Position numbers and translations under genes: made by a program. DNA of 64,000 nt from Micrococcaceae bacterium Sec5.1. Its GTDB lineage: Bacteria > Actinomycetota > Actinomycetes > Actinomycetales > Micrococcaceae. Numbering within the stretch: position 1 is the stretch's first letter; each line of letters starts with the position of its first letter. Shown here piece after piece: positions 9,362-24,769 of the stretch. Where the stretch lies: positions 868,001 through 932,000 of the forward strand of contig CP143430.1 of the NCBI GenBank assembly GCA_039636795.1, written 5' to 3'. The notes beneath the pieces are model-generated. The model was given only the letters and a program-made list of their open reading frames with translations. It did no database searches and had not been told where the DNA came from.

Positions 9362-9373
9362 TGGTGCCTCCAT

Positions 9374-10348
9374 TCAGGACGGGTAGACGGGGATAGCCCA
9401 TTGCTGGTCCTGGGCGACCTGTCCTATCACTGCCCTCCGGTAAAGGTCCTGGAGGCTGCGGGTGAGGTCCCCGGCGGTTCCCTTGCCGATAGTGGTGCGG
9501 TCAACCGAGGCAACATGATTTACCTCTGCAGCACTGCCGCAGACAAAGACTTCGTCAGCTGAGTACAGTTCTGTGCGGTCGATGGGTCGGACGTCAACGT
9601 CCAGGCCCAATTCGGTCCGGGCAAGGTGCAGGACGCTGTCCCGCGTGATTCCCTCAAGGATGCTGTCGGTGACGGGGGGAGTGCATAACCTTCCGTGGCG
9701 GACCATGAAGACGTTGTAACCGGCGCCTTCAGCCACATGCCCGCTGTCGGTGAGAAGCAATGCCGCGTCATAGCCGTTTCGCTTGGCTTCCAACAGGGCC
9801 AGCCTCCCGTTCTGGTAATTGGCAATGGACTTGACCCTGGGTGGCATGGACCGATCGGAAAGGCGGGCCCAACTGCTGATTTGCACATCCAGGCCGGTAG
9901 CGCCGAAGTAGTTGCCCATGGGAATGGCTGCCATAAAGACTGTGGAGGGACCCGTGTCTTCCGGCTTGCCATCCTTGGAGTCGACGAATACCTGTGCCCG
10001 CATATGGAGATTGCCCCGCAGATCGTTGGCGCGAATGAGTCCAAGCAGCTGATCGCCTAGCTGGTCGATGTCCTGCGGGCCGTCAATTTCCACAACCCGC
10101 ATGGAATCAATCAGCCGCTTCATATGGTCGGCCACCCTGAAGGCGTACAGTTGCTGATCCTCCTCGCTCCAATAGGCGCGGAAGCCCTCAAATACTCCGA
10201 CGCCGTACTTCAGCGATGTGCTCAGCACATGGAGGCGGGCATCGGCATAGTCCACCAGCTCGCCGTCGTGGAGAAGGTACTTCACAGGCTGGGCTGGAGC
10301 TGGCTGCCGAGTGGCAACTGCGGCTGTTGCTTCTTGAAAGTCGTCCAT
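9374..10348 (-). CDS. Branched-chain amino acid aminotransferase-like (class IV PLP enzyme)
   Basis: A 324-aa fold-type IV PLP aminotransferase. Features: YGVGVFEGFRAYW near the start, RVKSIANYQNGRLALLEAK with the PLP-binding lysine, TDSGHVAEGAGYNVF, and the glycine-rich EVFVCGSAAEV near the end. Members transfer amino groups between branched-chain or D-amino acids and 2-oxo acids. I chose the ATG at 10348, which gives a family-like length and has GAGGAA upstream. An upstream GTG at 10435 would add 29 residues containing an AASADE repeat, but no SD precedes it. It heads the leftward operon, so it probably works on an island intermediate rather than in general valine/leucine synthesis. Confidence 0.88.
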   Translation of the reverse strand: MDDFQEATAAVATRQPAPAQPVKYLLHDGELVDYADARLHVLSTSLKYGVGVFEGFRAYWSEEDQQLYAFRVADHMKRLIDSMRVVEIDGPQDIDQLGDQLLGLIRANDLRGNLHMRAQVFVDSKDGKPEDTGPSTVFMAAIPMGNYFGATGLDVQISSWARLSDRSMPPRVKSIANYQNGRLALLEAKRNGYDAALLLTDSGHVAEGAGYNVFMVRHGRLCTPPVTDSILEGITRDSVLHLARTELGLDVDVRPIDRTELYSADEVFVCGSAAEVNHVASVDRTTIGKGTAGDLTRSLQDLYRRAVIGQVAQDQQWAIPVYPS

Positions 10349-10366
10349 TGTAGGTTCCGTTCCTCG

Positions 10367-10402
10367 TTCATCTGCGCTGGCGGCTTCATCTGCGCTGGCG
10401 GC
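10367..10402. repeat. Two perfect 18-bp tandem repeats at the aminotransferase 5' end
   Basis: The unit TTCATCTGCGCTGGCGGC occurs twice head to tail (10367-10384 and 10385-10402). If translation starts at the upstream GTG it encodes a duplicated AASADE in the N-terminal extension. If it starts at 10348 the repeat lies in the leader. Confidence 0.9.
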
Positions 10403-10438
10403 GTCGACAGCAGCCAGCTTCATCTCAAGCGGCACTTA

Positions 10439-10640: not shown

Positions 10641-10691
10641 GAGACTTTGATATGAGGCTCTGGCCCGTCAAGGTCCGAACAGGAGCTGAAC

Positions 10692-10811
10692 ATGCACCAG
10701 CCACCGGTCCGCAGTCAGGACGATCTTCAATACATTGTGAGTGGGCTCAACCGGAGCAAGCCCGGGGATTGCCTCTCAACCACGCACGGACTCCGCGAGG
10801 AGGCTCCATGA
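10692..10811 (+). CDS. Candidate small protein or leader peptide ahead of the ABC transporter
   Basis: A 39-codon frame starting ATG with AGGAG at 6-nt spacing. It ends in TGA that overlaps the permease ATG (ATGA), the same coupling used through this operon. The product begins MHQPPVRSQDDLQYIVSGLN and has no signal peptide or membrane span. No family is recognised. It could be a short functional protein, a leader peptide coupling translation to the transporter, or chance. The ribosome-binding site and the stop/start overlap argue for real translation. Confidence 0.45.
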   Translation: MHQPPVRSQDDLQYIVSGLNRSKPGDCLSTTHGLREEAP

Positions 10812-11695
10812 GCATTCAAGGTCTTCCGCGCACATCGCCCGGCCTCCGAGTCACCGGGTGGGCCCGCCGGGGCCAGAACCTCTTGATGAACCGGTCCAGC
10901 ACCATCATGGTTGCCCTCGCCGTAACCATCATTGTGGGGTTACCGCTGATGGCTATAGTGGCTCCGCTGCCGCACGACCCGCTACGTCCGGATACAGACG
11001 CCATTGGTATTGCACCCAACGGAACCCATTGGTTCGGAACTGATGGAAACGGCATGGATATTTTCTCCCGCACCATCGAGGCCGCGAAGCTTGACCTGCC
11101 AGTTGCGCTCGCCGCCACAGCGTTGTCGCTGGTGGTTGGCGTTCCTTTGGGTCTGTTCGCAACCAGCGGCAAGCTCGGCGATGTCATCATGCGCGTCATT
11201 GACGCCTTCGCAGCCCTTCCGATCATCGTGATCGCCGTGGTCTCCATCAAGCTCATGGGCGGCGGGCCCACGGATGTGGTCCTTGCGATCGCTATCGTGG
11301 CTGCGCCCAGATTTGTGCGACTTTCCCGCGCTGCGGCCCTGGCACTTCGGTCCGCACGCTATGTGGAGGCTGCGGCAGCGATTGGTTGTTCACCCATCCG
11401 CATCGCCTTCAACCACATCTTCCGCAACGCTTATGGTGTGGTCCTGGTGCAGGCAACGCTTACCGCTGCCAACGCGCTCGGAACCATTGCCGCATTGAAC
11501 TTCCTTGGCGTAGGCGTGAAACCTCCCACACCCACGTGGGGGGCAATGATCAACGACGGTGTCAGCATGCTGATTCGCGGGGAATGGTGGGCTGCTGCCT
11601 TTCCCACCCTTGCGATGCTCCTGGCCATTGGTTCACTCAACGTGATCGCAGGGGGAATCGAAACCAAGATCGAGCGAGTGGAAAGGGCACGATGA
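10808..11695 (+). CDS. ABC transporter permease, DppC/OppC type
   Basis: A 295-aa inner-membrane permease of the peptide/nickel (BPD_transp_1) family. It has an N-terminal OppC-type region (LMNRSSTIMVALAVTIIVGL as first span), the HWFGTDGNGMDIFSRTI segment typical of DppC, further spans, and the EAA loop EAAAAIGCSPIRIAFNHIFRN that contacts the ATPase. I chose the ATG at 10808 because GAGGAGG lies 6 nt upstream; an upstream in-frame ATG at 10652 adds a non-family tail. It forms the channel together with the DppB-type permease encoded at 13409. Confidence 0.93.
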   Translation: MSIQGLPRTSPGLRVTGWARRGQNLLMNRSSTIMVALAVTIIVGLPLMAIVAPLPHDPLRPDTDAIGIAPNGTHWFGTDGNGMDIFSRTIEAAKLDLPVALAATALSLVVGVPLGLFATSGKLGDVIMRVIDAFAALPIIVIAVVSIKLMGGGPTDVVLAIAIVAAPRFVRLSRAAALALRSARYVEAAAAIGCSPIRIAFNHIFRNAYGVVLVQATLTAANALGTIAALNFLGVGVKPPTPTWGAMINDGVSMLIRGEWWAAAFPTLAMLLAIGSLNVIAGGIETKIERVERAR

Positions 11696-12606
11696 TGACA
11701 GGACTCCACGTACAGGACCTCGTGACCGAGTTCCACTCGCGGGGCGGCGTAACGCGGGCCCTGCACGGTATTTCCTTCGATGTCGGCGCCAACGAAGTCG
11801 TAGGCATCGTGGGCGAGTCGGGATCAGGGAAGTCCACTGTGGTGCGCTCGGTAATCAAGCTGCTGATGCCTCCCGGTCGTGTCATGGAAGGTACTGCCGA
11901 ATTCCATGGCCAGGATCTGATCCGCTTACCGGAGCGTCAAATCCGCCATATCCGCGGCAAGGAGATCGGCTTCGTGGCGCAGAACCCCTTCAGCGCACTG
12001 AACCCCGTTGTCCGCATAGAGAAGCAGTTCGCGAACATTGCCAAGGCCCACGGGCTGAAAGCGGACGGTGAATTACGTGGCCGTGCGCTCGAATTGTTGG
12101 CTTCCTCCGGCGTCAACGAACCCGAACGCGTTATTCGTGGCTATGCGCACGAACTCAGTGGCGGCATGGCACAGCGCGTCGTCATCGCCATGGCGCTGTA
12201 CCTCAACCCGCGCCTGGTCATTGCCGACGAACCGACGACGGCGCTGGACCTCACTGTGCAGCGGCAAGTGCTGGACACGCTCACGAGGTTGACGAAGGGG
12301 AGTGGCCGATCGATGTTGATCGTCACCCACGATCTTGGAGTGGTGGCCAACTACTGCGATCGCGTCCTCGTGATGTACCGCGGCCGGATTGTTGAACATG
12401 GTCCTGTGTCCGAGGTTTTTGTCCACCCAAAGGATCCTTACACCGTGTCCCTGCTTGATTCTGTCGTGCAGCCGAAAGCCGCTGTACAGCCGAAAGCCGC
12501 TGCGACTCCCACAGCAGAGCCAGGAGCCGAGAGGCCTGACGGCACACAGCCGAAGAGTGCCGACATAACGAAACCCACCGTTCTCTCCCCGTCCAGGAGT
12601 GCCTAG
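11692..12606 (+). CDS. ABC transporter ATP-binding protein, DppD/OppD type
   Basis: A 304-aa ATPase. It has Walker A GESGSGKST, a Q-loop in VAQNPFSALNP, signature LSGGMAQRV, Walker B LVIADEPTTALD and the switch His in IVTHD. It is paired with the next gene as the second nucleotide-binding subunit. The ATG overlaps the permease stop (ATGA). The C-terminal tail is unusual: about 50 residues rich in Pro, Ala and Lys, including two 18-bp repeats encoding QPKAAV-QPKAAA (12469-12504), in place of the usual short oligopeptide-transporter C-terminal domain. Confidence 0.93.
   Translation: MMTGLHVQDLVTEFHSRGGVTRALHGISFDVGANEVVGIVGESGSGKSTVVRSVIKLLMPPGRVMEGTAEFHGQDLIRLPERQIRHIRGKEIGFVAQNPFSALNPVVRIEKQFANIAKAHGLKADGELRGRALELLASSGVNEPERVIRGYAHELSGGMAQRVVIAMALYLNPRLVIADEPTTALDLTVQRQVLDTLTRLTKGSGRSMLIVTHDLGVVANYCDRVLVMYRGRIVEHGPVSEVFVHPKDPYTVSLLDSVVQPKAAVQPKAAATPTAEPGAERPDGTQPKSADITKPTVLSPSRSA
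12469..12504 (+). repeat. Two 18-bp tandem repeats in the DppD-type gene
   Basis: CAGCCGAAAGCCGCTGTA and CAGCCGAAAGCCGCTGCG are adjacent and in frame, coding for QPKAAV and QPKAAA in the C-terminal linker of the ATPase. They look like a recent in-frame slippage duplication. Confidence 0.88.
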
Positions 12607-12608
12607 CC

Positions 12609-13412
12609 ATGCCCATCATCGAACTGAAGGATGTTCGGAAAACGTTCCGAAGCCCCCAAGGGCAGCTTGTCACGGCGGTGGACGGAGTTTCACTTGCCGT
12701 CGAACGGGGCGAAACCTTGGGGATCATTGGTGAAAGCGGCTCCGGCAAGTCCACGCTGGGCCGCCTGATTCTTAGGCTCATTGAAGCAGATTCCGGAACC
12801 ATCCTCCTGGAAGACGAGGACATCCGGGGCTTGTCGAAAGCACAGCTGAGGAAACGACGCCGGCGCTGGCAGATAGTCTTCCAAGAGCCTTTCGCGTCAC
12901 TGAACCCCCGTTTGACGATCCGCCAGATTGTCGAGGAGCCTCTGATCGTTGCAAAGACATACGGCTCGCGGGCTGAACGTCTGCGCCGTGTCACGGAAAC
13001 GCTCGAAGAAGTGGGATTGTCTCAGGAATTCCTCAGCAGGCGTCCCGCGAACCTCAGTGGTGGCCAGCAGCAACGGGTGGGAATCGCCCGCTGCCTGGTG
13101 ACTGACCCGACGTTGATAGTCCTGGATGAACCGACGTCCTCGCTGGACCTGACGATCCGGGCATCAATCCTGCGCATGCTGGCCAAGCTCCAAGTGGCCA
13201 GGGGATTGACCTACGTCTTCGTGTCCCACGACATCGATACAGTCCGGCACTTTTGTACGAGCGTGGCTGTAATGCATCGAGGACGGTTCGTCGAGACGGG
13301 TTCCACGGATGACGTTCTTTCAAATCCCCAAGAGTCCTACACCCAGACCCTGATGTCCGCGGCGATGCCTCCCATTCCCTATAACCCAGGAGCCAAGGAG
13401 GCCATGGCATGA
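12609..13412 (+). CDS. ABC transporter ATP-binding protein, DppF/OppF type
   Basis: A 267-aa ATPase with Walker A GESGSGKST, Q-loop IVFQEPFASLNPRLT, signature LSGGQQQRVGIAR, Walker B LIVLDEPTSSLD and switch FVSHD. The C-terminal NPQESYTQTLMSA segment is the usual oligopeptide-transporter ATPase end. It starts 2 nt after the DppD-type stop and overlaps the DppB-type start by ATGA. With the DppD-type ATPase it would energise import of the island's substrate. Confidence 0.94.
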   Translation: MPIIELKDVRKTFRSPQGQLVTAVDGVSLAVERGETLGIIGESGSGKSTLGRLILRLIEADSGTILLEDEDIRGLSKAQLRKRRRRWQIVFQEPFASLNPRLTIRQIVEEPLIVAKTYGSRAERLRRVTETLEEVGLSQEFLSRRPANLSGGQQQRVGIARCLVTDPTLIVLDEPTSSLDLTIRASILRMLAKLQVARGLTYVFVSHDIDTVRHFCTSVAVMHRGRFVETGSTDDVLSNPQESYTQTLMSAAMPPIPYNPGAKEAMA

Positions 13413-14494
13413 TCCGCTACATCCTCTCCCGACTTGTTATTGCGTTCCTGCTCCTGTTGGGGCTCATTAGCCTGAGCTTTGGCCTGGTTTCCTTGCTCCC
13501 CGGCAACCCGGCGGTGGCCCTCCTCGGCGAGTATGCCACTGAAGCTGATATCGCCCGCATCAATGCCCAGCTTGGGTTGGACCAGCCATTTTGGGAACGC
13601 TACTTCCACTACATTGGCCGTACTTTGAGTGGGGACCTGGGGAATTCGTTCTTCACGGGAAGCTCCGTTTCGAGTGAGATCTGGACACGGTTGCCCAACA
13701 CGCTTGTCTATCTTGTGCCTGGGCTTTTGCTTGCCCTGCTCATAGGCATGGGAATGGGCACCCTTGCGGCCTACCGATATGGGCGCCCGGCAGACAAAGC
13801 ATTCACTGCCGGCGTTTCTGTCCTGATGGCCATGCCGGAGTTTGTCCTGGCGCTCCTTCTCCTCTTTATCTTCTACCAACAACTCCATTTGGCCCCCGCA
13901 CCCTTGGGTATGTTGTCCAGCTCCGATATCCCTCCCCCCAAAGTCACGGGATCTTTGGCGCTGGATGCCATGCTCGCCGGGCAATGGGGGACCCTGCAGT
14001 CCATTTTCAGCAGGGCGGTGCTGCCGATCATTACCATGGGGTTGTTTTTTGCGGCTCCTTTTGGAAAGACCGTTCGGACAGGTCTCCTTCAAGTGCTCAA
14101 CTCACCGCAGATCGAGTTTGCGAGGGCGTGCGGATTGAAGCCGCTGCAGGTATTCCGTTACGCGCTCAGCGACGTGCGCGGGGCTTTGATGACCTACATG
14201 GTGCTGTTGTTCGCTGCTGCACTGAGCGGCGCGGCAATTGTGGAAAGTGTCTTCTCCTGGCCAGGCGTTGGTGGCTGGTCATTGGACGGAGTGCTTAAGG
14301 GCGATGTACCCGTCATCCAAGGATTTGTGCTGATCATGGGTGCCACGAGCCTCCTTGGGTACGTGCTGCTGGACACCCTTATCACGCTCCTCGATCCGAG
14401 GACTCGAAACAACGTCGTCCACGGGGTAAAGCGTCCCTCGAAGCTGGGCCCTGCTGCGCAGCCAGCGGTGGAGCCCGTTGTGCAACAGGGCTAG
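13409..14494 (+). CDS. ABC transporter permease, DppB/OppB type
   Basis: A 361-aa inner-membrane permease. The N-terminal MIRYILSRLVIAFLLLLGLI span, the PGNPAVALLGEYATEADIARINAQLGLDQP periplasmic segment (cited in part) and the EAA loop EFARACGLKPLQVFRYALSD are DppB-type. The gene order permease-ATPase-ATPase-permease is unusual, as the permeases normally sit side by side. The substrate-binding lipoprotein is encoded 1.7 kb downstream beyond two MBL-fold genes. A hydrophilic 35-residue C-terminal tail is present. Confidence 0.93.
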   Translation: MIRYILSRLVIAFLLLLGLISLSFGLVSLLPGNPAVALLGEYATEADIARINAQLGLDQPFWERYFHYIGRTLSGDLGNSFFTGSSVSSEIWTRLPNTLVYLVPGLLLALLIGMGMGTLAAYRYGRPADKAFTAGVSVLMAMPEFVLALLLLFIFYQQLHLAPAPLGMLSSSDIPPPKVTGSLALDAMLAGQWGTLQSIFSRAVLPIITMGLFFAAPFGKTVRTGLLQVLNSPQIEFARACGLKPLQVFRYALSDVRGALMTYMVLLFAAALSGAAIVESVFSWPGVGGWSLDGVLKGDVPVIQGFVLIMGATSLLGYVLLDTLITLLDPRTRNNVVHGVKRPSKLGPAAQPAVEPVVQQG

Positions 14495-14541: not shown

Positions 14542-15369
14542 ATGTTCACTTCATTGCATACAGACAAGTTGACGGTCCTCGGCGGAAACATCCCGCTCGA
14601 CGGCCGCGTGAGCTGGGTTCCAGAAGGTGCAACAGGCTTCCAGCCGTCGAACGCTTACCTCCTGACCGAAGGAACTTCCCGCCTTCTGGTTGATTCAGGT
14701 TTGGCTGTCCACAGCGAAGAGATCCTCGAGGACCTGGCGGAGCTTATTGGTGAAGGCGGGGGAGTATCCATCTTCTTCACCCGGAGCGAGATGGATTGTG
14801 TGTCCAACCTCGAACCGATCGCCGGGCGGTTCGACATCGAGCGGCTCTTCACTGGCGGGGTAATCAACCCCTTCGATGCCTTCGATGACCTGAGCCGGAT
14901 GGCACTTCGAGGCAGGCGCCACCAGATCGACGCACACAGGACCGAAGAGGGTGACTCCCTTGCCCGGGCTGCCGAGATCGAGATAGCGCCCGGTCGCGTG
15001 CTCCAAGTGGAATCGCCCCTGCTGCGCCTCCTTCCCACATTCTGGGGCTGGGACGAGGAGACAGGCACGCTGTTCACCTCGGATACCTTCACGCACGGTG
15101 TTATGGATCGGCCCGACGGGCAGCGCATCATCGACTCCACCGTGGAGGACACCACCACGGTGGAACAGGTGGCCGGACACTTGTATGCGAAGTACGAGTG
15201 GATCCCGCGCTCCACATGCGAACCCCTGAGGGAATGGCTGCAGGAAAAGTTCCAAACCTTGGACCCCGAGATCATTGCCCCTTCCCGCGGTTGCGTTCTC
15301 AAGGGCCGCGACGTGGTGCGGCGGCATTTGGATTTCATGCTCGACGCCCTCACCCCGCAGTTGGTTTAG
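14542..15369 (+). CDS. MBL-fold protein with degenerate metal site (pair 1, pseudo-subunit)
   Basis: A 275-aa metallo-beta-lactamase-fold protein. Fold landmarks are present: NAYLLTEGTSRLLVDSG at 37-53 and LFTSDTF around D181. The metal motif HxHxDH is replaced by R81-S-E83-M-D85-C86, and the C-terminal His is replaced by R249 (PSRG). It is thus unlikely to bind the usual metals by itself. The closest relative in the window is the protein at 18625, which has R-T-E-M-E-C at the same place. It is followed after 9 nt by a partner that keeps a metal site. I infer a non-catalytic or regulatory half of a heteromer. No RBS is obvious; translation may be leaderless. Confidence 0.82.
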   Translation: MFTSLHTDKLTVLGGNIPLDGRVSWVPEGATGFQPSNAYLLTEGTSRLLVDSGLAVHSEEILEDLAELIGEGGGVSIFFTRSEMDCVSNLEPIAGRFDIERLFTGGVINPFDAFDDLSRMALRGRRHQIDAHRTEEGDSLARAAEIEIAPGRVLQVESPLLRLLPTFWGWDEETGTLFTSDTFTHGVMDRPDGQRIIDSTVEDTTTVEQVAGHLYAKYEWIPRSTCEPLREWLQEKFQTLDPEIIAPSRGCVLKGRDVVRRHLDFMLDALTPQLV

Positions 15370-15378
15370 GAGAGAATC

Positions 15379-16209
15379 ATGGAAGAACAACTCGTAGAAA
15401 CGATGAGCAGCGACCTCCCACGCAGCGTCGCGAAGGGCGTCACGTGGATGAGTTCCTGCCTCCCGTTCCACTTGGCCGACCGCGTAATCCACGGCCATAA
15501 CTCCACCTACTTGGTCCAGGGAGAACACTCGTCCATCCTGGTCGATACTGGCAACCCGTCCAGCTGGCCGATCATTTCAAGCACTCTGGACGAGCTGCTG
15601 GATGGACGCGAGCTGACGTACGTTTTCCCCACGCACCCTGAGCTTCCCCACACCGGAAACCTGCCCAGGCTGGTGGAGAAGTATCCGAACATCCAGGTGG
15701 TGGGCGACACCCGCGACTACCACTTGTTCTACCCGCAGATCGTTCCGAATCTCCACGCAAAGGTGCCTGGCGACAAAGTGGATCTGGGTGGGCAGGAGTT
15801 TGTGGTTGTGGAGGCCCTCATCCGGGACCTGCCCAACACGCAATGGGGATTTGCCCCTGGAGCAGGCGTGCTCTTCACTGCGGACGGCTTCTGTTACATG
15901 CACCGTCCCGAACTCGACGACGAAGACCCAGTACACCTCCCCGGCGAATGCGGTTTGACCACCGGCGAACTGCAGGTTCCCATCGCCGTCGAGAACGCCG
16001 CCTTCTTCACCGGAAGCGCCCTTTATTGGGCGCGCTTCGCAAACGACGCAGACGCAGTTTACGATCGCGTTCTTCATCTTATTGATGAACTCGGCGTCAC
16101 CTCCGTGGCCCCCACCCACGGCAACTTCATCAGCAACATCCGCGACGTGGAGCCCATCATTCGGGCGGGCCACAAGCGGGCATACCGCTACGAGACTGCA
16201 CAGTCGTAG
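15379..16209 (+). CDS. MBL-fold protein with flavodiiron-like metal site (pair 1, active-type subunit)
   Basis: A 276-aa metallo-beta-lactamase-fold protein. The first motif is H86-P-E88-L-P-H91, similar to the HxExDH of flavodiiron/oxygen-binding diiron proteins but with Pro for the Asp. D169 in TADGF and H247 in PTHGN are retained. The position of the third flavodiiron His is Q155 in NTQW. There is no flavodoxin domain. Family members bind a diiron or dizinc centre; which metal and reaction apply here is unknown. The ATG follows GGAGAGA and lies 9 nt after the partner gene. A homologous protein is encoded at 19386. Confidence 0.85.
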   Translation: MEEQLVETMSSDLPRSVAKGVTWMSSCLPFHLADRVIHGHNSTYLVQGEHSSILVDTGNPSSWPIISSTLDELLDGRELTYVFPTHPELPHTGNLPRLVEKYPNIQVVGDTRDYHLFYPQIVPNLHAKVPGDKVDLGGQEFVVVEALIRDLPNTQWGFAPGAGVLFTADGFCYMHRPELDDEDPVHLPGECGLTTGELQVPIAVENAAFFTGSALYWARFANDADAVYDRVLHLIDELGVTSVAPTHGNFISNIRDVEPIIRAGHKRAYRYETAQS

Positions 16210-16237
16210 CTTCCCCCCAATAAACGGAGCCACCTTC

Positions 16238-17833
16238 ATGAAAAGTCTGCGTTTGCTCACCGGAGGCGCTGCAATTGCCCTCACCACATCCCTTGTTGCC
16301 TGCGGAGGTCCAGCCCCGCAAACTGCAGCTACCAAATCCATAGAAAACGTTGTTGTTGCCGTGGGCGCCCTGCCTGACAGCCTGACGCCGGCGCCTTGGG
16401 GAGGCAGCGCCTCGCACGTAGTGCTCAGTGGACTCGGCTCGCAACTCCTCGAATACAAGATGGGAACAAGCGACGGCAAGTCGTGCCCCGCGCCGTCCAC
16501 AGAAGTATCGGGTCGCCTGGCCGAAAGCGCCAAACCAAGCCCTGATGGAACGGGCGTGATTGTCACCCTTCGCAAGCTGACGAGTCAGTTTGGAAACACC
16601 CTGTCGGCCGAGGACGTCCGATGGAGTTTCGACATCGGCATGAAGCGTCAGCCGGTTATGAAGGGGACGCTGAAGAGCAGCGGCTTCAATGTTGACAACC
16701 TGGTCAAGGTGATCGACGAGCACACTTTCCAGCTGAACACCACCGGACTTACCTCTTACACAGAAGAATCATTGCAAAACAACCTCTTCTACATCCACGA
16801 CAGCACGGAAGCAAAGAAGCATGCGACGGCGGATGACCCCACCGCCAACGCCTGGCTTTCGAAGAACCTCGCCGATTACAGCGGCTGGAAGCTGGAAGAA
16901 TTTACTCCCGGTGCATCCCTGACCGTGACGGCGGATCCTCAGTGGGAGGGCACTCGCGGCACCGTGAAGCGTGTATCCGTCAAGGCTGTCCAGAGCACCG
17001 CTACCCGCAGCCAGCTGGTCGAAACCGGTGAAGTTCAGGTAGCCAATGGCTTTGAATACGACCAGTACAAGTCACTGGAGAAGTCTCCGGGCGTGACTGT
17101 CATGAACTGCCCCAGCCAGACCCGCGACACCATGATGATCAACACGAAGACCGGTCCACTTGCCGATCCCAAGGTTCGGCACGCAGTCTCCATGGCTATC
17201 GACCGCGAAGCACTGATCAAGGGTGCCTACGCAGGCTTCGGTGAACCCGCAAAATCGATCTTCCCCAATGTTGACGAATCTGCGATCTACAAGTTCAACA
17301 AGGACGAAGCCAAGAAGCTGCTCAGCGAGGCCGGATACGGCAATGGCTTCCCGATGACCCTCAGCTACAGCGTTACGCGTCCGGGGCCTGTAGCGGCCAA
17401 GTCCGCGGTCCTGATCCAGTCCATGCTCAAGGAAGTCGGCATCGACGTCCAGTTGCAGAATGTGGCCAGCTCCACCGACTTCTCGACGGCGCTCATCGAT
17501 GGCCGTTACCAGGCAGTGCTGTACTCGGAGCCGATCGTCATTGCCGATCCCGCCTTCTACAGCTACGCGTTCTACGGCAGTGCCGCCCCCAGCAACAGCA
17601 CCGGCTGGTCCAACCCTGAATTCGATAAGGCACGCAGCGAACTCGCAGCAACTCCGGACCAGGAAACGGAGAAGCGTGATGGCCTCCTGAAGAAGATGGC
17701 CGGGCTGGTGGATGAGGGCGCAGCCATTCTGTCGCTCGTCGAGACCAGGGGAGTGCTGGTCACGAGGGAAGGTCTCACAGGCGCGGTTCCACTGACCAAT
17801 GGCCAAATCTACTTCAATTCCCTGGGCCGCTAG
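16238..17833 (+). CDS. ABC transporter substrate-binding lipoprotein (SBP_bac_5, DppA/OppA family)
   Basis: A 531-aa extracytoplasmic solute receptor. It begins with a lipoprotein signal: MKSLRLLTGG, a hydrophobic core, and the lipobox LVAC with Cys at about residue 22. The body has family 5 features such as SAEDVRWSFDIGM, the DPKVRHAVSMAIDREALIKG block (cited in part), and a C-terminal half with the AKSAVLIQSMLKEVGID segment. It should deliver the substrate to the importer encoded at 10808-14494. I chose the ATG at 16238, which gives the lipobox and has GGAG upstream; the frame is open further upstream but overlaps the previous gene. Confidence 0.93.
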   Translation: MKSLRLLTGGAAIALTTSLVACGGPAPQTAATKSIENVVVAVGALPDSLTPAPWGGSASHVVLSGLGSQLLEYKMGTSDGKSCPAPSTEVSGRLAESAKPSPDGTGVIVTLRKLTSQFGNTLSAEDVRWSFDIGMKRQPVMKGTLKSSGFNVDNLVKVIDEHTFQLNTTGLTSYTEESLQNNLFYIHDSTEAKKHATADDPTANAWLSKNLADYSGWKLEEFTPGASLTVTADPQWEGTRGTVKRVSVKAVQSTATRSQLVETGEVQVANGFEYDQYKSLEKSPGVTVMNCPSQTRDTMMINTKTGPLADPKVRHAVSMAIDREALIKGAYAGFGEPAKSIFPNVDESAIYKFNKDEAKKLLSEAGYGNGFPMTLSYSVTRPGPVAAKSAVLIQSMLKEVGIDVQLQNVASSTDFSTALIDGRYQAVLYSEPIVIADPAFYSYAFYGSAAPSNSTGWSNPEFDKARSELAATPDQETEKRDGLLKKMAGLVDEGAAILSLVETRGVLVTREGLTGAVPLTNGQIYFNSLGR

Positions 17834-17912
17834 GCCGCCAGTAGTTACGTGTGGTGCCGGTCGGTCGCCGTCGAAACCCGGCCGGCATCACCTTACAGAA
17901 GAAGGACTTCCG

Positions 17913-18590
17913 ATGATTGAAATTTGCGGAAAGCAGGTCCGCGACACCCTGCAGGAGTTACTGGATCCAGCCACTACGGCCCTAGTGGTTATCGATATGC
18001 AGGAAGGGGCTGTCTACGCCGGCGGCGCCATCGGCGATTCCGGCCACGACCTGAGCATGATGCCTTCCGTGGCCAAGCGCTGCGGCAGGGCAATTGAGTC
18101 GGCCCGGAAGAACGGTGTTCCGATCTTCCACATCCGGGTCGAAAACCTTCCCGACGGCGCCAGCTCGCCTCCAGCGTGGCTGCGGGCTTTGTACACGGCT
18201 GCCAACGGGCGGCCGATCGATCTTGGCAGGCTCAGCCTCAAGGGCGATCCGGCTACGGAGTTTTGCGCCGAATGCATGCCCGAAGAGGGCGAAGTCATCA
18301 TCACAAAGCGCCGCCCAAGCGCATTTGTAGGCACGGAATTGGCCCTCCTTCTCCGGAGCCAGGGCATTGAATCGGTCGCTCTGGTGGGTGTCTCCACAGG
18401 CGGTTGCGTCGAGGCTACCCTGCGGGACGCGGTTCACAACGATTTCTACGCAGTCCTGATCGAGGACGCTGTGGGCGCGTACGACACCGTGGTCCACGAC
18501 GCTGCGCTGACTGTCATGAGGGCCCGCCACGATGTCTGCACACTGGACCAGGCCATTGAGGTTTGGGACTCGGCCGGCGCCGGCTCCTGA
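17913..18590 (+). CDS. Isochorismatase family cysteine hydrolase (N-carbamoylsarcosine amidase/maleamate amidase-like)
   Basis: A 225-aa cysteine hydrolase. The catalytic triad is visible: D28 in VVIDMQ, K132 in ITKRR, and C165 in VSTGGCVEAT. The cis-peptide segment before the Cys is also normal. Such enzymes hydrolyse carbamoyl or amide groups (N-carbamoylsarcosine, maleamate, ureidoacrylate, nicotinamide). In an island with a hydantoinase-like enzyme, removal of a carbamoyl or amide group from the opened ring is a reasonable role. The ATG has AAGGA at 7-nt spacing. It lies between the two MBL-fold pairs. Confidence 0.9.
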   Translation: MIEICGKQVRDTLQELLDPATTALVVIDMQEGAVYAGGAIGDSGHDLSMMPSVAKRCGRAIESARKNGVPIFHIRVENLPDGASSPPAWLRALYTAANGRPIDLGRLSLKGDPATEFCAECMPEEGEVIITKRRPSAFVGTELALLLRSQGIESVALVGVSTGGCVEATLRDAVHNDFYAVLIEDAVGAYDTVVHDAALTVMRARHDVCTLDQAIEVWDSAGAGS

Positions 18591-18624
18591 TTCGACTGAC
18601 GAGAATCATGGAGAGGAGAAGCCG

Positions 18625-19389
18625 TTGAATCCAGGCACAGCCCAGCGTGCGGTGGCCACCGACGCGCACCGCCTCATTGGAGACCGAGTTCACCGTTTGG
18701 CAGCAAACATCGTCCTGGACGAAAACGTGAGTTGGTGTCCGCCCGGGACCCGGACCATCCAGCCCGTGAATTGCTACCTCATTAAGGGAGACAACGGCTC
18801 AGTGCTGGTGGATACGGGTATCCGGCTACATGAAGCTGAAATCATCCAGCAGTTGGACTCACTCCTGGAACAGGGCGAACGGCTGGCTGTGGTGCTGACA
18901 CGAACAGAAATGGAATGTTGCCTGAACCTTCCGGCCATCGAAGCACGGTTCAACGTCGAATCGGTCTGGTACACGGGCGGAATTACGGTGCCGAGGATGA
19001 GTGCGTCACCGCAGCGCATCATGGTCAATCCTGGAACCTCGCGTGAGGTGGAGGTTATCGATGGCCTGACGTTGGAGTTCGTGTCGCCGTTGATGCGGCT
19101 GCTGCCGACGCTTTGGATCTTCGATCCAGTCTCCAAGGTGCTCCTGACCTCGGACGGTTTCACCCATCGTTACCCGGGCAGCTCGACTGCTGAGGCGGGG
19201 CTGCAGAAATTCCAATGGTTTGCCCAGGCGGATACGAGGGACATTGCAGGGGACGTTGAAGAAGTAATCCTTCGGCGACAGGTTGCGGCCATCGGCCCCG
19301 GGTACGGGGAGCCGATCGTCGGCGCAGGCGAATCTGCCTCCGAGGCCGGCGCCCTGGCCGAGGCGATCAGGAAGGTGGGTCTTCAGTGA
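18625..19389 (+). CDS. MBL-fold protein with degenerate metal site (pair 2, pseudo-subunit)
   Basis: A 254-aa MBL-fold protein, paralogous to the one at 14542. The fold landmarks NCYLIKGDNGSVLVDTG and LLTSDGF are kept. The metal motif reads R93-T-E95-M-E97-C98, and the C-terminal His position is Y227 (PGYG). The start is TTG at 18625 with GAGGAG at good spacing; the upstream frame overlaps the previous gene and has no such site. Its stop overlaps the next start (GTGA). The shared R-[ST]-E-M-[DE]-C in both pseudo-subunits suggests a conserved non-canonical function rather than decay. Confidence 0.82.
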   Translation: MNPGTAQRAVATDAHRLIGDRVHRLAANIVLDENVSWCPPGTRTIQPVNCYLIKGDNGSVLVDTGIRLHEAEIIQQLDSLLEQGERLAVVLTRTEMECCLNLPAIEARFNVESVWYTGGITVPRMSASPQRIMVNPGTSREVEVIDGLTLEFVSPLMRLLPTLWIFDPVSKVLLTSDGFTHRYPGSSTAEAGLQKFQWFAQADTRDIAGDVEEVILRRQVAAIGPGYGEPIVGAGESASEAGALAEAIRKVGLQ

Positions 19390-20210
19390 GTGCCGACGTT
19401 CCGGGCGCGGAGCCAACCAAGGGCCGCGTCATCGCAGAAGGGGTGTATTGGCTGGGCGGATGCCTGTCCGCCAGCGCCGAGGGACAGGAAGTCCACTACC
19501 ACGTTTCGTCTTATCTGGTGATGGGCTCCGAAGCATCCATCCTGGTGGACACGGGAGATCCCGCGCATCGGGATACCGTCCTGGCCGAACTGGAGAATGC
19601 GCTTGGAAGCAGATCACTGGACTACGTCTTCCCAACGCATCCGGAAATCCCGCATGCTGGCAATCTTCCGGTTCTGTTGGAACGTTATCCGTCGGCTGTC
19701 GTCGTTGGGGACGTTCGTGATTATGCACTTCATTTCCCCGAGTATGCAGACCGTCTGACGGCCAAGCATGCTGGGGAGTCGGTCGCCCTCGGGGACAGGG
19801 AGTTCCACTTCCTTCCGGCCTACATTCGTGACCTGGAGAACACTCTCTGGGGTTACGACTCCGGTGCGGGGATCATGTTCGTTTCCGATGGCTTTTCCTA
19901 CATCCACGACATACCAGGACCGGATGAGGACGATGAACCCGTGCATCTGCCCGGGCAGTGCCGTTTGCTCTCCACCGAAATGCCCGAACCGCCGTCCGTG
20001 GAACAGGCGGCGTATGGTACGGGCCGTGCCCTCTACTGGACCAAGTTCGTTGATGTGGGCACGGCGTTCCGAAGCATCGAGGAAGCCCTGGAGGACTACC
20101 CAACCAGCTTGATAGGGCCTGCCCACGGAAACGTCATTGACGACGTCCAGGGCATGCTCACGACATCGCTGGCTGCCCATCGCAAGGTTTACGAAGGGCG
20201 GAGGCTCTAA
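19386..20210 (+). CDS. MBL-fold protein with flavodiiron-like metal site (pair 2, active-type subunit)
   Basis: A 274-aa MBL-fold protein, paralogous to the one at 15379. It has H85-P-E87-I-P-H90, D168 in VSDGF and H247 in PAHGN. The position of the third flavodiiron His is L154 (NTLW), versus Q155 in pair 1. The stretch VVGDVRDYALHFPEY matches VVGDTRDYHLFYPQI of pair 1. The GTG start overlaps the partner's stop, so the two subunits are translated together. The active-type proteins are more alike than either is to its partner, consistent with duplication of the whole pair. Confidence 0.85.
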   Translation: MSADVPGAEPTKGRVIAEGVYWLGGCLSASAEGQEVHYHVSSYLVMGSEASILVDTGDPAHRDTVLAELENALGSRSLDYVFPTHPEIPHAGNLPVLLERYPSAVVVGDVRDYALHFPEYADRLTAKHAGESVALGDREFHFLPAYIRDLENTLWGYDSGAGIMFVSDGFSYIHDIPGPDEDDEPVHLPGQCRLLSTEMPEPPSVEQAAYGTGRALYWTKFVDVGTAFRSIEEALEDYPTSLIGPAHGNVIDDVQGMLTTSLAAHRKVYEGRRL

Positions 20211-20248: not shown

Positions 20249-21181
20249 ATGCGGGACCTGATTGGATATGGGGAGAACCCCCCGATTGTCACTTGGCCTC
20301 ATGGCGCCAAGGTTGCCGTCTCCTTGGTGCTGAACTACGAGGAAGGCGCTGAAAGTTCCATCGAAGCCGGTGATGAGCGGGACGAGGACGTTTCGATCTT
20401 TGGAGGGTGGTCCTCTGATCCCTCGCGGCGCAGCCTTATGAAGGAGTCCTTCTTCGAATACGGCAGCCGCGTCGGCATTTGGCGGTACCTGGGAATGTTG
20501 CGGGAGTACCACGTACCAGCAACTGTCATGGCTTGCGGAGCTGCCCTGGAACGGAACCCGGACGCGGCGCTGGCTATTGTCCGGGACGGTCATGAGATCT
20601 GTGCCCACGGCTACAAGTGGCGCGGAACCGTGGGAATGGAGCCGGATGAAGAGCGGCGCGAAATACGGAAGTCTTTGGCCGCCGTCGAGGCTGTGTCCGG
20701 AGTACGGCCGGTGGGCTGGTATGTCCGTGAGGGCATCACCGAGAACACGCGGACCATCCTGGCGGAGGAAGGCGTCCTTTACGATTCCAATTCCTACGCA
20801 GACGACCTTCCCTACTATGTGAAGGCCGGCACCCACAATCACTTGGTGGTGCCATATTCGGGTGACACGAACGATGCCCGCTTCTGGGGCAACGGGAGCC
20901 TGGGGACCGCGGAGGACTTCTTCAACGTGCTGAAGGACTCTCTGGACTGCCTGCTGATTGAGGGCGAAACCGTGCCCAAGATGATGTCCGTCGGGCTGCA
21001 TTTGAGGATCGGCGGCCGGCCCAGCGTCGCCCACGGGGTGCGCCGTTTTCTGGAGTACGCCCTTGCCAAAGAGGGAGTCTGGTTCGCCACCCGCGAGGAG
21101 ATCGCACGCTGGTGGATGGAGCACCCGCCTGTTGAGGCCAACGCCAGTTCGGCCGAGGCTGCTTTCGAGGGGGCGGCGTGA
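20249..21181 (+). CDS. Polysaccharide deacetylase-fold protein, PuuE allantoinase-like (copy 1)
   Basis: A 310-aa NodB-fold protein. The start MRDLIGYGENPPIVTWPHGA and the FVLNYEEGAE-type segment (here LVLNYEEGAESS) mark the PuuE-like group, whose characterised member is a metal-independent allantoinase. Other hallmarks are GHEICAHGYKW, VVPYSGDTNDARFW and MMSVGLHLRIGGRPS. It could open a cyclic ureide or amide. No other purine pathway gene is nearby. AAGGAGA precedes the ATG. It overlaps the following cupin gene by four bases. A second, leftward copy is at 23840. Confidence 0.88.
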   Translation: MRDLIGYGENPPIVTWPHGAKVAVSLVLNYEEGAESSIEAGDERDEDVSIFGGWSSDPSRRSLMKESFFEYGSRVGIWRYLGMLREYHVPATVMACGAALERNPDAALAIVRDGHEICAHGYKWRGTVGMEPDEERREIRKSLAAVEAVSGVRPVGWYVREGITENTRTILAEEGVLYDSNSYADDLPYYVKAGTHNHLVVPYSGDTNDARFWGNGSLGTAEDFFNVLKDSLDCLLIEGETVPKMMSVGLHLRIGGRPSVAHGVRRFLEYALAKEGVWFATREEIARWWMEHPPVEANASSAEAAFEGAA

Positions 21182-21606
21182 TGGGAACAGGAGACGGGCA
21201 AACAGCCACGGTCAACATCGATCGCCTGGTGCACAACGTCCACGAGCAAGGCTTTACTGCCCTGGACAAGATAGGACTCAACGGTCAGCGCGACCAAGGC
21301 CTGGTCAGCACGCTCATTTCCCGGGACCTCAGTGGTTCTGATGATTTGTGCGTCAGCTGGGGTCGGATCCTTCCCGGTCAGCACCATCTATGCCACCATC
21401 ACCCGGACGCGTCAGAGTTCTACGTTGTCCTTAGCGGAACCCCGATCGTCCATCTTGGCGACACCACGTACCGGGCAAAACCGGGCGATGGCATTTACAT
21501 CCCACGCGGAACTACGCACGGACTTACCAACGATGGCTCGGAAAACGTGGAACTCGTTGTTGGCGTGAGCAAGCCTGCTGACTGGCAATTCGTCCCGGAT
21601 GAGTGA
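21178..21606 (+). CDS. Cupin domain protein
   Basis: A 142-aa single-cupin protein. Motif 1 is GQHHLCHHHPDASEFYVVLSG (cited across its residues: His at the first two positions, Glu before F) and motif 2 is PGDGIYIPRGTTHGLTN. The three His and one Glu ligands of a mononuclear metal site appear intact. Such small cupins act as isomerases, dioxygenases or sugar/ureide lyases (ureidoglycolate lyase has the same fold), so a role on an island intermediate is plausible. The start is GTG at 21178, overlapping the previous stop, or the adjacent ATG at 21181. Confidence 0.85.
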   Translation: MMGTGDGQTATVNIDRLVHNVHEQGFTALDKIGLNGQRDQGLVSTLISRDLSGSDDLCVSWGRILPGQHHLCHHHPDASEFYVVLSGTPIVHLGDTTYRAKPGDGIYIPRGTTHGLTNDGSENVELVVGVSKPADWQFVPDE

Positions 21607-21619
21607 GGAGGATCCACAC

Positions 21620-22342
21620 GTGACCCAGGAACAGTCTTCGATCCTTAAACGCAGCGTTGGCATCATTACCGCCGATCCCACTCCCACTTTGCTGGCCCTC
21701 CTGGCGCACGCCGACGTGGACTTCCTGGTCCTCGATGCTGAACAGACAGGGATTTCCGTCGGGCAGTGCCGCGATGCAGTGCAGCGCCTGGCTGGCTCCG
21801 GGGTGCACGTGGCAGTGCGGGTACCGGATTTGGAACCGAACACCCTGGTGGCTTTCGCCAACACCGGTGTAGCCGAGATCGTCCTTCCGCAGGTCCGGAC
21901 GGTGGACCAACTCGAACAGGCCTACGAGGCCACGAGGTATGCGCCCCTGGGATCGCGCCCCCACCAAGTAACACCCGCTTCGTCATTTGGCATGGACTAT
22001 TCTTCCTCTCCGTTGCTCACCGTCTTGTTCGAGACAGCGGAAGCTGTGGAACGCGTCAAGGAGTTCGTTGACAGTGTCGCGTTTGGCGGAGGCTGGGTGG
22101 GGCCGACTGACCTGGGGGCGGACCTCCGTCGACTGGGAGAAGAGCGCCCTGAAGCCTTGCAGGAAGCCATCCAGCATGTGGTGGACATTGTTGCAGGGGC
22201 CGGTTACAGCATCGGAGTTCCGGCGCCGGCAATGGCCGCAGCGGCGACTGTTTTTCGCCGTGGCGCTGACCGTTGTGCCGTTTATTGGGAGAAAGAGGTT
22301 GCTTCCATGTTGACCGGTTACGCCGGGTTGCGGGCGGCGTGA
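21620..22342 (+). CDS. HpcH/HpaI family aldolase (2-oxo acid aldolase/citrate lyase beta-like)
   Basis: A 240-aa TIM-barrel class II aldolase. Segments: FLVLDAEQTGIS (DxEH region), VAVRVPDLEPNTLVAFANTGVAEIVLPQV (cited in part; metal-binding region follows), TVLFETAEAVERV (metal Glu), and WVGPTDLGADLRRLG. Members cleave 4-hydroxy-2-oxo acids to pyruvate or glyoxylate plus an aldehyde. The GTG at 21620 has GAGGAG at 8-nt spacing and is preferred over an in-frame ATG at 21599 that overlaps the cupin gene. It is a plausible last step in the island, turning an oxo acid into central metabolites. Confidence 0.88.
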   Translation: MTQEQSSILKRSVGIITADPTPTLLALLAHADVDFLVLDAEQTGISVGQCRDAVQRLAGSGVHVAVRVPDLEPNTLVAFANTGVAEIVLPQVRTVDQLEQAYEATRYAPLGSRPHQVTPASSFGMDYSSSPLLTVLFETAEAVERVKEFVDSVAFGGGWVGPTDLGADLRRLGEERPEALQEAIQHVVDIVAGAGYSIGVPAPAMAAAATVFRRGADRCAVYWEKEVASMLTGYAGLRAA

Positions 22343-22411
22343 GCAACTTTGCCAGGGCCGCTGGGGCCGTTGAATCCAGTGTCTTTAAAAAGGCATCCAA
22401 GCCAAATCATC

Positions 22412-22425
22412 TTCGATATACTGAC
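22412..22425 (+). promoter_or_regulatory. Promoter of the regulator gene with island motif copy D
   Basis: TTCGATATACTGAC embeds a good -10 box TATACT (22417-22422). The start codon of the XRE-cupin gene is at 22456 with GAAGGAG just before it, so a leader of about 27 nt is expected. No clear -35 is seen, which would fit a weak or regulated promoter. It lies in the only sizeable gap (113 nt) of this part of the rightward cluster. Confidence 0.55.
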
Positions 22426-22455
22426 GCAAAACCGAGGACTAATGAAGGAGTCGTC

Positions 22456-23073
22456 GTGGACGGTACGGACACAGCACAAGGCGAAGTAACCGAGTCCCTG
22501 GAACGCGACTTCTGGATTGCCCATCTTGGGGCCATGATCAAGCAGCAGCGACTCGGCCGCTTCACGGTGGAGGAGCTTGCTGAACGCGCAGGTGTCAGCG
22601 CGGGGCTCATCAGTCAGATCGAGCGCGGAATCGGCAATCCTTCCTTTGCGACGCTTCTTCGTTTGGCGAACTCGCTGGACCTTCCGCTGGCAAGCATGTT
22701 CATGGACCCCAATGAGGGCCAGGACCACATGCTGGTACGCCGGGCGGACAGGCGGCGAATCGAAATTCCTTCCCAGGGCATCATCATGGAGCTGATCGTT
22801 CCGGATTCAGAGCGAAAGCTGGGTGTCATCAGCATGACCATTCCGGCCAACTTCGAGGGCGCACACGTTCCGCATTCCCATGAGGGCGAGGAGTGTGTCA
22901 TTCTGCAAGCAGGCACCCTGGTGGCGACCATCGGGGGCCAGGATTTTGTCCTTGAAGCGGGCGATAGCCTCACATACGACGCTTCCTTGCCACACTGGTG
23001 GAGCAACCAAACGAATTCGGCCGCAGTCATGCTCGCGATATCCACACCACCCTCGCTCGGCAAAGCGCACTGA
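22456..23073 (+). CDS. XRE-family transcriptional regulator with C-terminal cupin domain
   Basis: A 205-aa regulator. The helix-turn-helix (about 18-75) reads GAMIKQQRLGRFTVEELAER, then AGVSAGLISQIERGIGNPSFATLLRLANSL (cited in part). The cupin domain (about 115-200) includes HVPHSHEGEECVILQAGTL and EAGDSLTYDASLPHWWSN and probably senses a small ligand. The GTG start has GAAGGAG directly upstream. It is the only DNA-binding protein in the island and is preceded by one copy of the shared promoter motif, so it is the best candidate to bind all five copies and to regulate itself. Confidence 0.9.
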   Translation: MDGTDTAQGEVTESLERDFWIAHLGAMIKQQRLGRFTVEELAERAGVSAGLISQIERGIGNPSFATLLRLANSLDLPLASMFMDPNEGQDHMLVRRADRRRIEIPSQGIIMELIVPDSERKLGVISMTIPANFEGAHVPHSHEGEECVILQAGTLVATIGGQDFVLEAGDSLTYDASLPHWWSNQTNSAAVMLAISTPPSLGKAH

Positions 23074-23075
23074 TC

Positions 23076-23795
23076 GTGGGCGTTCCTGGCCCGGCGACCA
23101 GGCTTGGCATCCTGGTCCCATCGAGCAATTCGAATGCAGAAACGCTCACAGCCTCGATCGTTGCGGAACAGCCCGACCTTGGAGTGCACTACACACGCTT
23201 CCGTCTGCCTCCAAGTCTTGATGATCCAGTTGATCTGGGCGTCCTTGGAGAGGCTCCTTCCTTGTTGAACGACGCCGAGCTGCAAGGCGTTGCTTTCCAC
23301 GGCACTTCCGGCTCCTGGACGGGTATCGCCGGCGATCAGGATCTATGTGCCGGGCTCAAGTCCATGTGCGGGGCGCCGGCCACCACAGCCTCCTTGGCCG
23401 TCGTCGAGGCCCTTGCTGCATTGCAGGCAACACGCATCGGCCTCGTTTTTCCGGGGCCCGGAGGTATCGCGTCGCTGATTCAGGAGGAGTATGCCGCGCA
23501 CGGCATTGACGTTAAGGGTATTTCGGTTCCAGAAGTTGTGATGACCAACCCGGAAATAGCCAGGCTTGACCAGTCCGGAGTGGTGGGGCTGATGAGGCCC
23601 GCCTTCACTCGGGACGTGGATGCCGTGGTGTGTATTGGAACCAACCTTCGCTCGGGATACTTCGTGGCCGGTCTCGAGCAGGAGTTCGGCATTCCCGTGG
23701 TGGACAGTGCTATCGCGACCATATGGCATCTGCTCCGCGTCGCCGGAGTCGCCCGCGCCATCCCGGGATGGGGAGCGCTGCTGGCTTTGGAGTAG
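23076..23795 (+). CDS. Asp/Glu racemase superfamily protein (arylmalonate decarboxylase/maleate isomerase-like)
   Basis: A 239-aa protein. Superfamily landmarks are RLGILVPSSNSNAE, AFHGTSGSW, GAPATTASLAVVEAL, VVCIGTNLRSG and the C-terminal VARAIPGWGALL, which is much like arylmalonate decarboxylase. The first catalytic position (Cys in maleate isomerases and racemases) is G76 in HGTSG, as in arylmalonate decarboxylase. The second is also unusual: G188 stands where SCTN is expected, with a Cys two residues earlier (C186). The enzyme may decarboxylate or isomerise an intermediate. It starts at GTG, 2 nt after the regulator gene; the RBS is weak. Confidence 0.8.
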   Translation: MGVPGPATRLGILVPSSNSNAETLTASIVAEQPDLGVHYTRFRLPPSLDDPVDLGVLGEAPSLLNDAELQGVAFHGTSGSWTGIAGDQDLCAGLKSMCGAPATTASLAVVEALAALQATRIGLVFPGPGGIASLIQEEYAAHGIDVKGISVPEVVMTNPEIARLDQSGVVGLMRPAFTRDVDAVVCIGTNLRSGYFVAGLEQEFGIPVVDSAIATIWHLLRVAGVARAIPGWGALLALE

Positions 23796-23839
23796 AAGCG
23801 GCCTCGAAGCCAGCTTCGCGGTACTCCACTTAGGTGACC

Positions 23840-24769
23840 CTACGACGTCGGAGGTCCGCCCGCCGTCGTCTGCTCCGCCGTCGTAACCCGCAGCCAGGCA
23901 TTGACGATGTCCTGCCGGGTCGCGAACCAGACATCTTTCTGCTGTGCATAGGTTATGAATCGCTCAAGCGCCACTGCATACGCCGGCCGTCCGATGAGCC
24001 GCGGGTGGAGGCCCACGCTCATCACGGAGGGGCCGCCGCGGGGGTCTTCGAGCAGCATGTCCAAGGCAGCGATCAGATGATTGCCGAACGCCGTCGCGGT
24101 GGGAAATTGCTTGAACAGCCCGGAATCGTTGGTGTCGCCTGCGTATGGCAGCACGGGAAGACGCGGGTTTCCATGACCGCTGCCCCAGTGCGGCAGGTCG
24201 TCGTTGAAGCTGTTCGATTCGTAGGTGAACCCGGTGGTGGCGAGCACCTGGCGCGTCCCCGGCTTGAGTCCATCACGCGAGTACCAGCTCGTGGGAGCCA
24301 GGCCTGTGCTGGCCTCTATCGCATTCTTGGAGGCGACGATCAGGCGCTGCTCCGCTTCGTCGTCGAGGTCTGTGTGAGTGTCCCACTGGTGCCCGTGATC
24401 TGCGATCTCATGTCCGTCGCGGACCAATGCGGCAGCGATTGGAGGGTTGAGTTGCAACGCTACTGCACAGCAGAATGCGGTGGCGCGGACGCTATGCTTC
24501 CGCAGGATCCTTAGTAAGCGCCAGATCCCAGCCCTGGAGCCGTATTCGAACGCCGATTCCAAGGTGATGTTCCGTTCCGCTGATGCCTGGGCGGGAATCC
24601 AATGTGCCGCAAGATCATTGGCCTTGTCGCCGCGGGCGATGCTGCGCTCAGCACCCTCTTCAACATTGATCACCAAGGAAACCGCCACCTTGGCATTGCC
24701 CGGCCAGCGGAATTGTGGCGGAGTTTCGCCATATCCGATGAAATCCCGCTGCGTGGGCATCTGTGCCAT
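23840..24769 (-). CDS. Polysaccharide deacetylase-fold protein, PuuE allantoinase-like (copy 2)
   Basis: A 309-aa PuuE-like protein, paralogous to the one at 20249. It has RDFIGYGETPPQFRWPGNA, LVINVEEGAERS, GHEIADHGHQW, VLPYAGDTNDSG and VMSVGLHPRLIGRPA. It is leftward, convergent with the racemase-like gene (44-nt gap) and divergent from the amidohydrolase. GGAGAAG precedes the ATG. Differences from copy 1 in the third motif (IADHGHQWDTH versus ICAHGYKWRGT) suggest another substrate. It probably shares the regulatory region at 24827 with the amidohydrolase gene. Confidence 0.87.
   Translation of the reverse strand: MAQMPTQRDFIGYGETPPQFRWPGNAKVAVSLVINVEEGAERSIARGDKANDLAAHWIPAQASAERNITLESAFEYGSRAGIWRLLRILRKHSVRATAFCCAVALQLNPPIAAALVRDGHEIADHGHQWDTHTDLDDEAEQRLIVASKNAIEASTGLAPTSWYSRDGLKPGTRQVLATTGFTYESNSFNDDLPHWGSGHGNPRLPVLPYAGDTNDSGLFKQFPTATAFGNHLIAALDMLLEDPRGGPSVMSVGLHPRLIGRPAYAVALERFITYAQQKDVWFATRQDIVNAWLRVTTAEQTTAGGPPTS

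Follow-up and report, generated by a model that had tools for sequence, protein, structure and literature searches.

Two pairs of metallo-beta-lactamase-fold genes, with a probable metal-bearing subunit and a partner that has lost its metal site, in a putative catabolic cassette of a Micrococcaceae bacterium

The stretch of DNA considered here, referred to below as the window, is 64,000 nucleotides from Micrococcaceae bacterium Sec5.1 (contig CP143430.1, positions 868,001 to 932,000 of the forward strand), and its plus strand carries two pairs of genes, B1-A1 and B2-A2, for proteins of the metallo-beta-lactamase (MBL) superfamily, where A is the probable metal-bearing subunit and B a partner whose metal site is lost. 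B1, an open frame of 275 aa at 14542..15369, has the motif TRSEMDC at 14779-14799, the Arg of LLRLLP at 15019-15036, the Asp of TSDTF at 15076-15090 and PSRG at 15280-15291. A1, of 276 aa, occupies 15379..16209, with THPELPH at 15631-15651, RDLPNTQW at 15823-15846, ADGF at 15880-15891 and PTHG at 16111-16122. The start of B2 is uncertain: initiation at a TTG gives a protein of 254 aa (18625..19389), the alternative being a longer frame from an ATG at 18532; its motifs are TRTEMEC (18898-18918), LMRLLP (19090-19107), TSDGF (19147-19161) and PGYG (19297-19308). A2 (19386..20210; 274 aa), the start of which overlaps the B2 stop by 4 bases, has THPEIPH at 19635-19655, RDLENTLW at 19827-19850, SDGF at 19884-19895 and PAHG at 20118-20129. 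The B1 stop overlaps a Shine-Dalgarno-like stretch before A1 as TAGGAG (15367-15372), and 14 of the 15 relatives read likewise end B1 with TAG. The frames of B1 and A1 match across this TAG, but read-through was rejected, as only 7 of those 15 have the two genes in frame.

Membership of the MBL superfamily follows from the alpha-beta-beta-alpha fold and matches to Lactamase_B (PF00753), at 45.0 bits for A1, 40.5 bits for A2 and a weak 24.7 bits for B2; for B1 the Pfam search matched no family. The oxygen-binding diiron protein family, ODP (PF19583), is only weakly matched, by A2 with 27.8 bits against a curated cut-off of 27.2 and by A1 with 21.5, and not by B1 or B2. Structural matches of A, and of a model of B1 linked to A1, include Flv1 (6h0c, 6h0d). 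The original prediction, made from the sequence alone, had called these proteins flavodiiron-like with no flavodoxin domain attached, and the Pfam and structural matches back that assignment: Pfam gives no flavodoxin domain in A1, A2, B1 or B2 (254-276 aa), and A is only 274-276 aa long. As modelled, the fold of A is that of an MBL protein of the flavodiiron branch without flavodoxin. An hhalign comparison of A with B extends along most of both sequences (249 columns; probability 100, E 3e-42) and marks them as homologues. The 5.4 Mb genome carries 22 Lactamase_B matches, and a search of it with A2 matched only A1, A2, B1 and B2 at E 0.01.

For the metal ligands, 61 A and 61 B sequences were aligned jointly with two flavodiiron proteins, residue columns being placed by the sequence of locus L060 and numbered in what we take to be flavodiiron numbering (as in H79). 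The sequences are not independent, as 35 of the 61 pairs come from the same cassette type and many are close kin, and the second pair of genome G492 was left out. An earlier, smaller alignment had 57 rows per side, after removal of six ORFs ahead of the residue counts (L087 supplied five of them, and another MBL protein, of L030, was the sixth), and a version with single A rows placed on the B half was discarded and replaced by a later one. In all 61 A sequences there is His at positions 79, 84 and 226 and Asp at 165, with Glu (56) or Asp (5) at 81. The flavodiiron ligand set HxExDH...H...D...H is not that of A, which has Pro for the motif Asp (position 83) and Asp for the third His (position 146) in 61 of 61, the latter also in a phmmer alignment to FprA. 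The motifs HPE[LI]PH, DGF, HG and R-[ST]-E-M-[DE]-C of the original prediction were borne out; the Gln or Leu that it placed at one His was one column off, the true column being the invariant Asp.

The first His is lost in 54 of the 61 B sequences, and in all 54 it is replaced by Arg. These degenerate partners have Glu (53) or Asp (1) at position 81, Asp (35), Glu (16) or Met (3) at 83, Cys (47), Ser (6) or Gly (1) at 84, a gap at 146 in every case and, at 226, Tyr (19), Arg (18), Phe (8), His (5), Gln (1) or a gap (3). The replacement of the C-terminal His by Arg or Tyr, as proposed earlier, is true of B1 and B2 and is not general, since five degenerate partners keep His. The bridging Asp (165) is present in every degenerate B and in 61 of 61 overall. 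An Arg stands directly before the gap at 146 in 50 of the 57 rows of the smaller alignment, the number of degenerate rows there, and by eye in four further B sequences. The B columns for Arg, Thr-Trp and Asp are conserved across phyla. The remaining seven B sequences, six haloarchaeal and one from Paracoccus, share the ligand set of A and are still paired with A; none of the 61 combines all the His residues with the motif Asp. Judged by ligands only, the bacterial pairs consist of one subunit with a metal site and a homologous one without, a pattern absent from the seven haloarchaeal and Paracoccus pairs.

Scanning the genomes of 84,980 species with the A alignment gave 28 loci, and B adjoins A in all 28, with the A frames broken in L087 and B running off the contig in L089. 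L087 is from Arthrobacter sp. Hiyo8, where shortening or splitting, by decay or sequencing error, affects B1 and the two A genes (L087:6271-11733). As these loci were found through A, B was also searched on its own. A search of 72,556 plasmid records turned up B in 14 (12, then two more), and A adjoins in all of them, twelve having been fetched as regions (L021 without annotation) and two judged from match positions. Annotation and low identity, not alignment, were the grounds for classing the other 27 of the 41 records in that search as flavodiiron or other MBL proteins, and for one plasmid search behind the count 20 of 25 matched records were among the matches listed. The exception to pairing is a 75-residue A-like remnant without B in NC_014299, on Halalkalicoccus jeotgali plasmid 2, where it lies between M20 and creatininase genes (L106:2938-3225).

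A B profile found B in three of 396 genomes of a phylum sample and in four of 385 of an alphaproteobacterial class sample, with A alongside in all three and all four; in G896 A fell below the E limit and was recovered by reading the locus. In the phylum sample 294 of the 396 genomes were matched at E 0.001, by their scores through flavodiiron and other MBL proteins, and B was counted only below about 1e-45, a line set after viewing the list that leaves out the next matches (G737 at 3e-29, and L036 with an HDDxDH-type motif); at most six candidates per genome were scored in the profile surveys. In all 16 genomes or records searched whole the counts of A and B are equal (matches at 1e-10, sorted by score and place). 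The family is patchy: seven of 396 genomes in a sample of the window's own order were matched by A2 at E 0.001, with only two of them, G389 and the genome of the window itself, at or below 1e-70, and nine other genomes of the same genus listed in that sample gave no A2 match. Some genomes occur in more than one sample (that of L080 as G440 and G787, that of L072 as G389 and that of L082 as G789), and haloarchaea were sampled through plasmids only. In 55 pairs outside the window the order is BA in 38 and AB in 17. In Amycolatopsis orientalis (G785; L105, L078) two pairs are on different contigs, so the pairs need not adjoin each other.

The original prediction suggested an obligate heteromer, against which B alone, or B with an intact HxHxDH, would speak. 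Pairing is strict in the genome and plasmid surveys, and neither a lone B nor a lone full-length A was recognised in them. Degeneracy, on the other hand, is no fixed trait, as 7 of the 61 partners keep the A ligand set.

A1 and A2 are 44% identical and B1 and B2 31%. In a tree made by a quick method, with four outgroup rows added to 28 pairs taken from the 57, the same sub-clades (cassette pair 1, cassette pair 2, Rhodococcus/Tomitella, alphaproteobacteria and haloarchaea) appear on the A and B sides, supported at 91 to 100. Support drops to between 26 and 54 at the deepest joins, where long branches come together. The splits of A1 from A2 and of B1 from B2 are not separated in it from that between actinobacterial and alphaproteobacterial pairs. 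The outgroup is of the type of L037:1501-2151 and L043:1501-2118. These MBL relatives, encoded by single genes, combine HDDxDH with an Asp in the third-His column and are perhaps near the root of the pair; their position outside it is assumed. The pair is indeed present twice, as originally noted, but a recent local duplication finds no support, the A1/A2 and B1/B2 lineages being deep in the tree. Pairwise distances of A and B correlate at 0.969 (57 pairs from 40 loci, the window being one), a value reached in none of 2000 permutations, though shared ancestry alone raises it. B evolves faster (median distance 0.70 vs 0.59 for A). The ratio omega, by Nei-Gojobori against L021, L063 and L075, is 0.047-0.082 for B1, 0.009-0.048 for A1, 0.086-0.117 for A2, and 0.183 and 0.194 for B2, its third value being undefined by saturation; these ratios indicate that B1 and B2 are under purifying selection. 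The pairing seems older than the loss of the metal site, because of the distribution of intact B rather than a rooted tree.

The surroundings of the two pairs point to catabolism. Upstream of B1 are ABC transporter genes of peptide/opine type (permease, two ATPases, permease; 10652..14494, plus strand), named from sequence reading and from their similarity, by BLAST, to genes annotated as ABC in L026 and L032, not from a family search. Between the pairs, on the same strand, lie genes for a family-5 solute-binding protein (16235..17833; PF00496, 204.5 bits) and an isochorismatase-fold cysteine hydrolase (17913..18590) whose closest solved relatives are biuret hydrolase, then RutB. A2 is followed by a plus-strand gene for a PuuE-like allantoinase relative (20249..21181; 312.9 bits, under the PuuE equivalog cut-off of 424.6), and then, at 21178..27849 and identified by family searches and synteny, by genes for a cupin protein, an HpcH aldolase family member, an HTH-cupin regulator, an AMDase/EutA-like protein, a second PuuE-like protein (minus strand), an amidohydrolase and an amidase. 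A divergent arm on the minus strand (6967..10435) has genes for a hydantoinase/dihydropyrimidinase relative, an FmdA-like protein and a branched-chain aminotransferase; all three are found in L077 and the last two in L087, other loci being cut before the arm.

Synteny of this cassette of about 20 genes (6967-27849) extends to Arthrobacter, Sinomonas and Microbacterium, and a plasmid of Arthrobacter sp. StoSoilB13 shares it too. Both pairs lie within one cassette in 14 loci from these three genera (L063-L076), in the order ABC transporter, B1, A1, binding protein, isochorismatase-fold hydrolase, B2, A2, PuuE-like, and then cupin to amidase as in the window, save that L069 lacks the transporter and binding protein at that position and L066 ends before the amidase; in L077 and L078 the cassette is rearranged. 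By its nearest solved relatives it looks like an undescribed pathway for the breakdown of a cyclic ureide or amide, because of the hydantoinase-like, two PuuE-like, biuret-hydrolase-like, amidase, FmdA-like and EutA-like genes; nicotinate-like and cyclic-imide routes were also weighed as candidates. Elsewhere the pair is near tripartite tricarboxylate or TRAP transporters, HpcH or isopropylmalate-dehydratase-like genes, or flavin monooxygenase-type genes, and there are transport genes in the fetched stretch of 10 of 11 annotated plasmid loci, the exception being L022.

We incline, by a little, to the reading that each pair forms one heteromeric metalloenzyme for small-molecule catabolism, with A catalytic and B degenerate. 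The site in A would consist of His, Glu or Asp, the Asp that replaces the third His, the bridging Asp and two more His. In MBL hydrolases the motif Asp binds the second metal and, because the invariant Pro removes it in A, the second position would lack one of its ligands, which makes a single or an uneven metal site likely. In bacterial B the metal site may have been exchanged for a conserved Arg pocket, with one Arg in place of the first His and another at the place of the A-specific Asp, and B would have the task of forming the dimer and, probably, of binding an anionic or amide substrate. The two such enzymes of the cassette could serve two steps or two substrates. The reaction is envisaged as a cleavage without external electrons, tentatively hydrolytic, a dependence on O2 being the less probable option; this leaning, a weak one, comes from the nameable catalytic genes of the cassette being those of hydrolases, an aldolase, a racemase-family protein and an aminotransferase.

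Some of the evidence pulls the other way. Hydrolysis ranks only slightly above an O2 reaction because the Asp for the second metal is lost in A, adjacency and matching trees are no proof of contact, and for the linked B1-A1 model (pTM 0.52) no interface is predicted. The last two points would suit two separate proteins of one pathway sharing an operon, A as a homodimeric enzyme and B as a metal-free enzyme, sensor or chaperone, but pairing persists from haloarchaea to actinobacteria despite changing neighbourhoods and flipped gene order, and with no lone B and no lone full-length A recognised in the surveys this is improbable, if far from negligible. A somewhat better, though still doubtful, candidate is a non-heme iron oxygenase in which A binds a single Fe(II), with H84, H226 and D165 as one conceivable 2-His-1-carboxylate set, and cleaves or oxidizes its substrate with O2 while B shapes the pocket, as does the iron-free alpha subunit of protocatechuate 3,4-dioxygenase. 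The fold in the flavodiiron/ODP branch, the carboxylate-rich site (Glu or Asp at 81 and Asp at 146 in all 61 A), the flavin monooxygenase-type genes, flavin reductase or Rieske protein near some pairs and the aerobic life of the named host genera all fit it; the named enzymes in the window cassette, however, are besides one cupin of hydrolytic or lyase types, and neighbours elsewhere are mixed. That B is decaying, pseudogene-like and functionless might be thought from its lost ligands, its faster evolution and the shortened B1 in L087, where, however, both A frames are broken as well; with its omega of 0.05-0.19 and its Arg, Thr-Trp and Asp columns conserved across phyla, decay was rejected as highly improbable, and the original view of selection, not decay, stands, all 54 degenerate partners having Arg where the first His would be.

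A further and more tentative proposal is that the heteromer of A and B represents an undescribed metalloenzyme family, built of two flavodiiron-branch MBL subunits and present in haloarchaea, actinobacteria and alphaproteobacteria, in which a heteromer with both sites intact predates the Arg pocket of bacteria. If true, a symmetric enzyme has been turning asymmetric and both states are alive today, which would allow a test of how one of two paired sites goes and what replaces it, as living relatives keep both. MBL-fold proteins are named by their metal motif, and here one subunit has an unlisted ligand set and its partner is often annotated as a hypothetical protein, in a pair found in catabolic clusters from haloarchaea to actinobacteria; it may be a lead to a so far uncharacterised reaction by which cyclic ureides, amides or organic acids are degraded. 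A limited search of the open-access literature found neither the A-B family nor its ligand set or intact relatives.

To judge by analogy, the principle of a live and a dead MBL subunit is already known. CPSF73/CPSF100 and IntS11/IntS9 are eukaryotic heterodimers of an active and an inactive MBL protein, nucleic-acid enzymes with a beta-CASP insert, and form a second parallel to the A-B pair, set beside it by description, not sequence. The single-gene relatives in L037 and L043 share with A the Asp at the third-His column but retain the motif Asp (HDDxDH). ODP (PDB 6qrq, 6r9n), a chemotaxis sensor by its PDB titles, differs from A at the Pro and Asp ligands, and we know of no paired partner for it. 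The nearest parallel is with the cyanobacterial Flv1/Flv3 and Flv2/Flv4, likewise two homologous pairs. Flv3 and Flv4 are described as having the canonical iron ligands and Flv1 and Flv2 as lacking them, with the Flv2/Flv4 heterodimer seen in native gels, Flv1/Flv3 deduced from mutants and Flv3, according to a review, also acting alone in some cases (PMC4390876; PMC6658166); such flavodiiron pairs are reported as common in oxygenic phototrophs, with heterodimers suggested (PMC2669126). On its sequence the A-B pair is not a member of the flavodiiron family, having no flavodoxin domain and another ligand set. The Flv proteins carry flavodoxin and flavin-reductase domains and reduce O2 in photosynthesis, whereas the window pairs are bare MBL domains in catabolic clusters and, unlike in Flv, even in the better-kept subunit, A, Pro takes the place of the motif Asp and Asp that of the third His.

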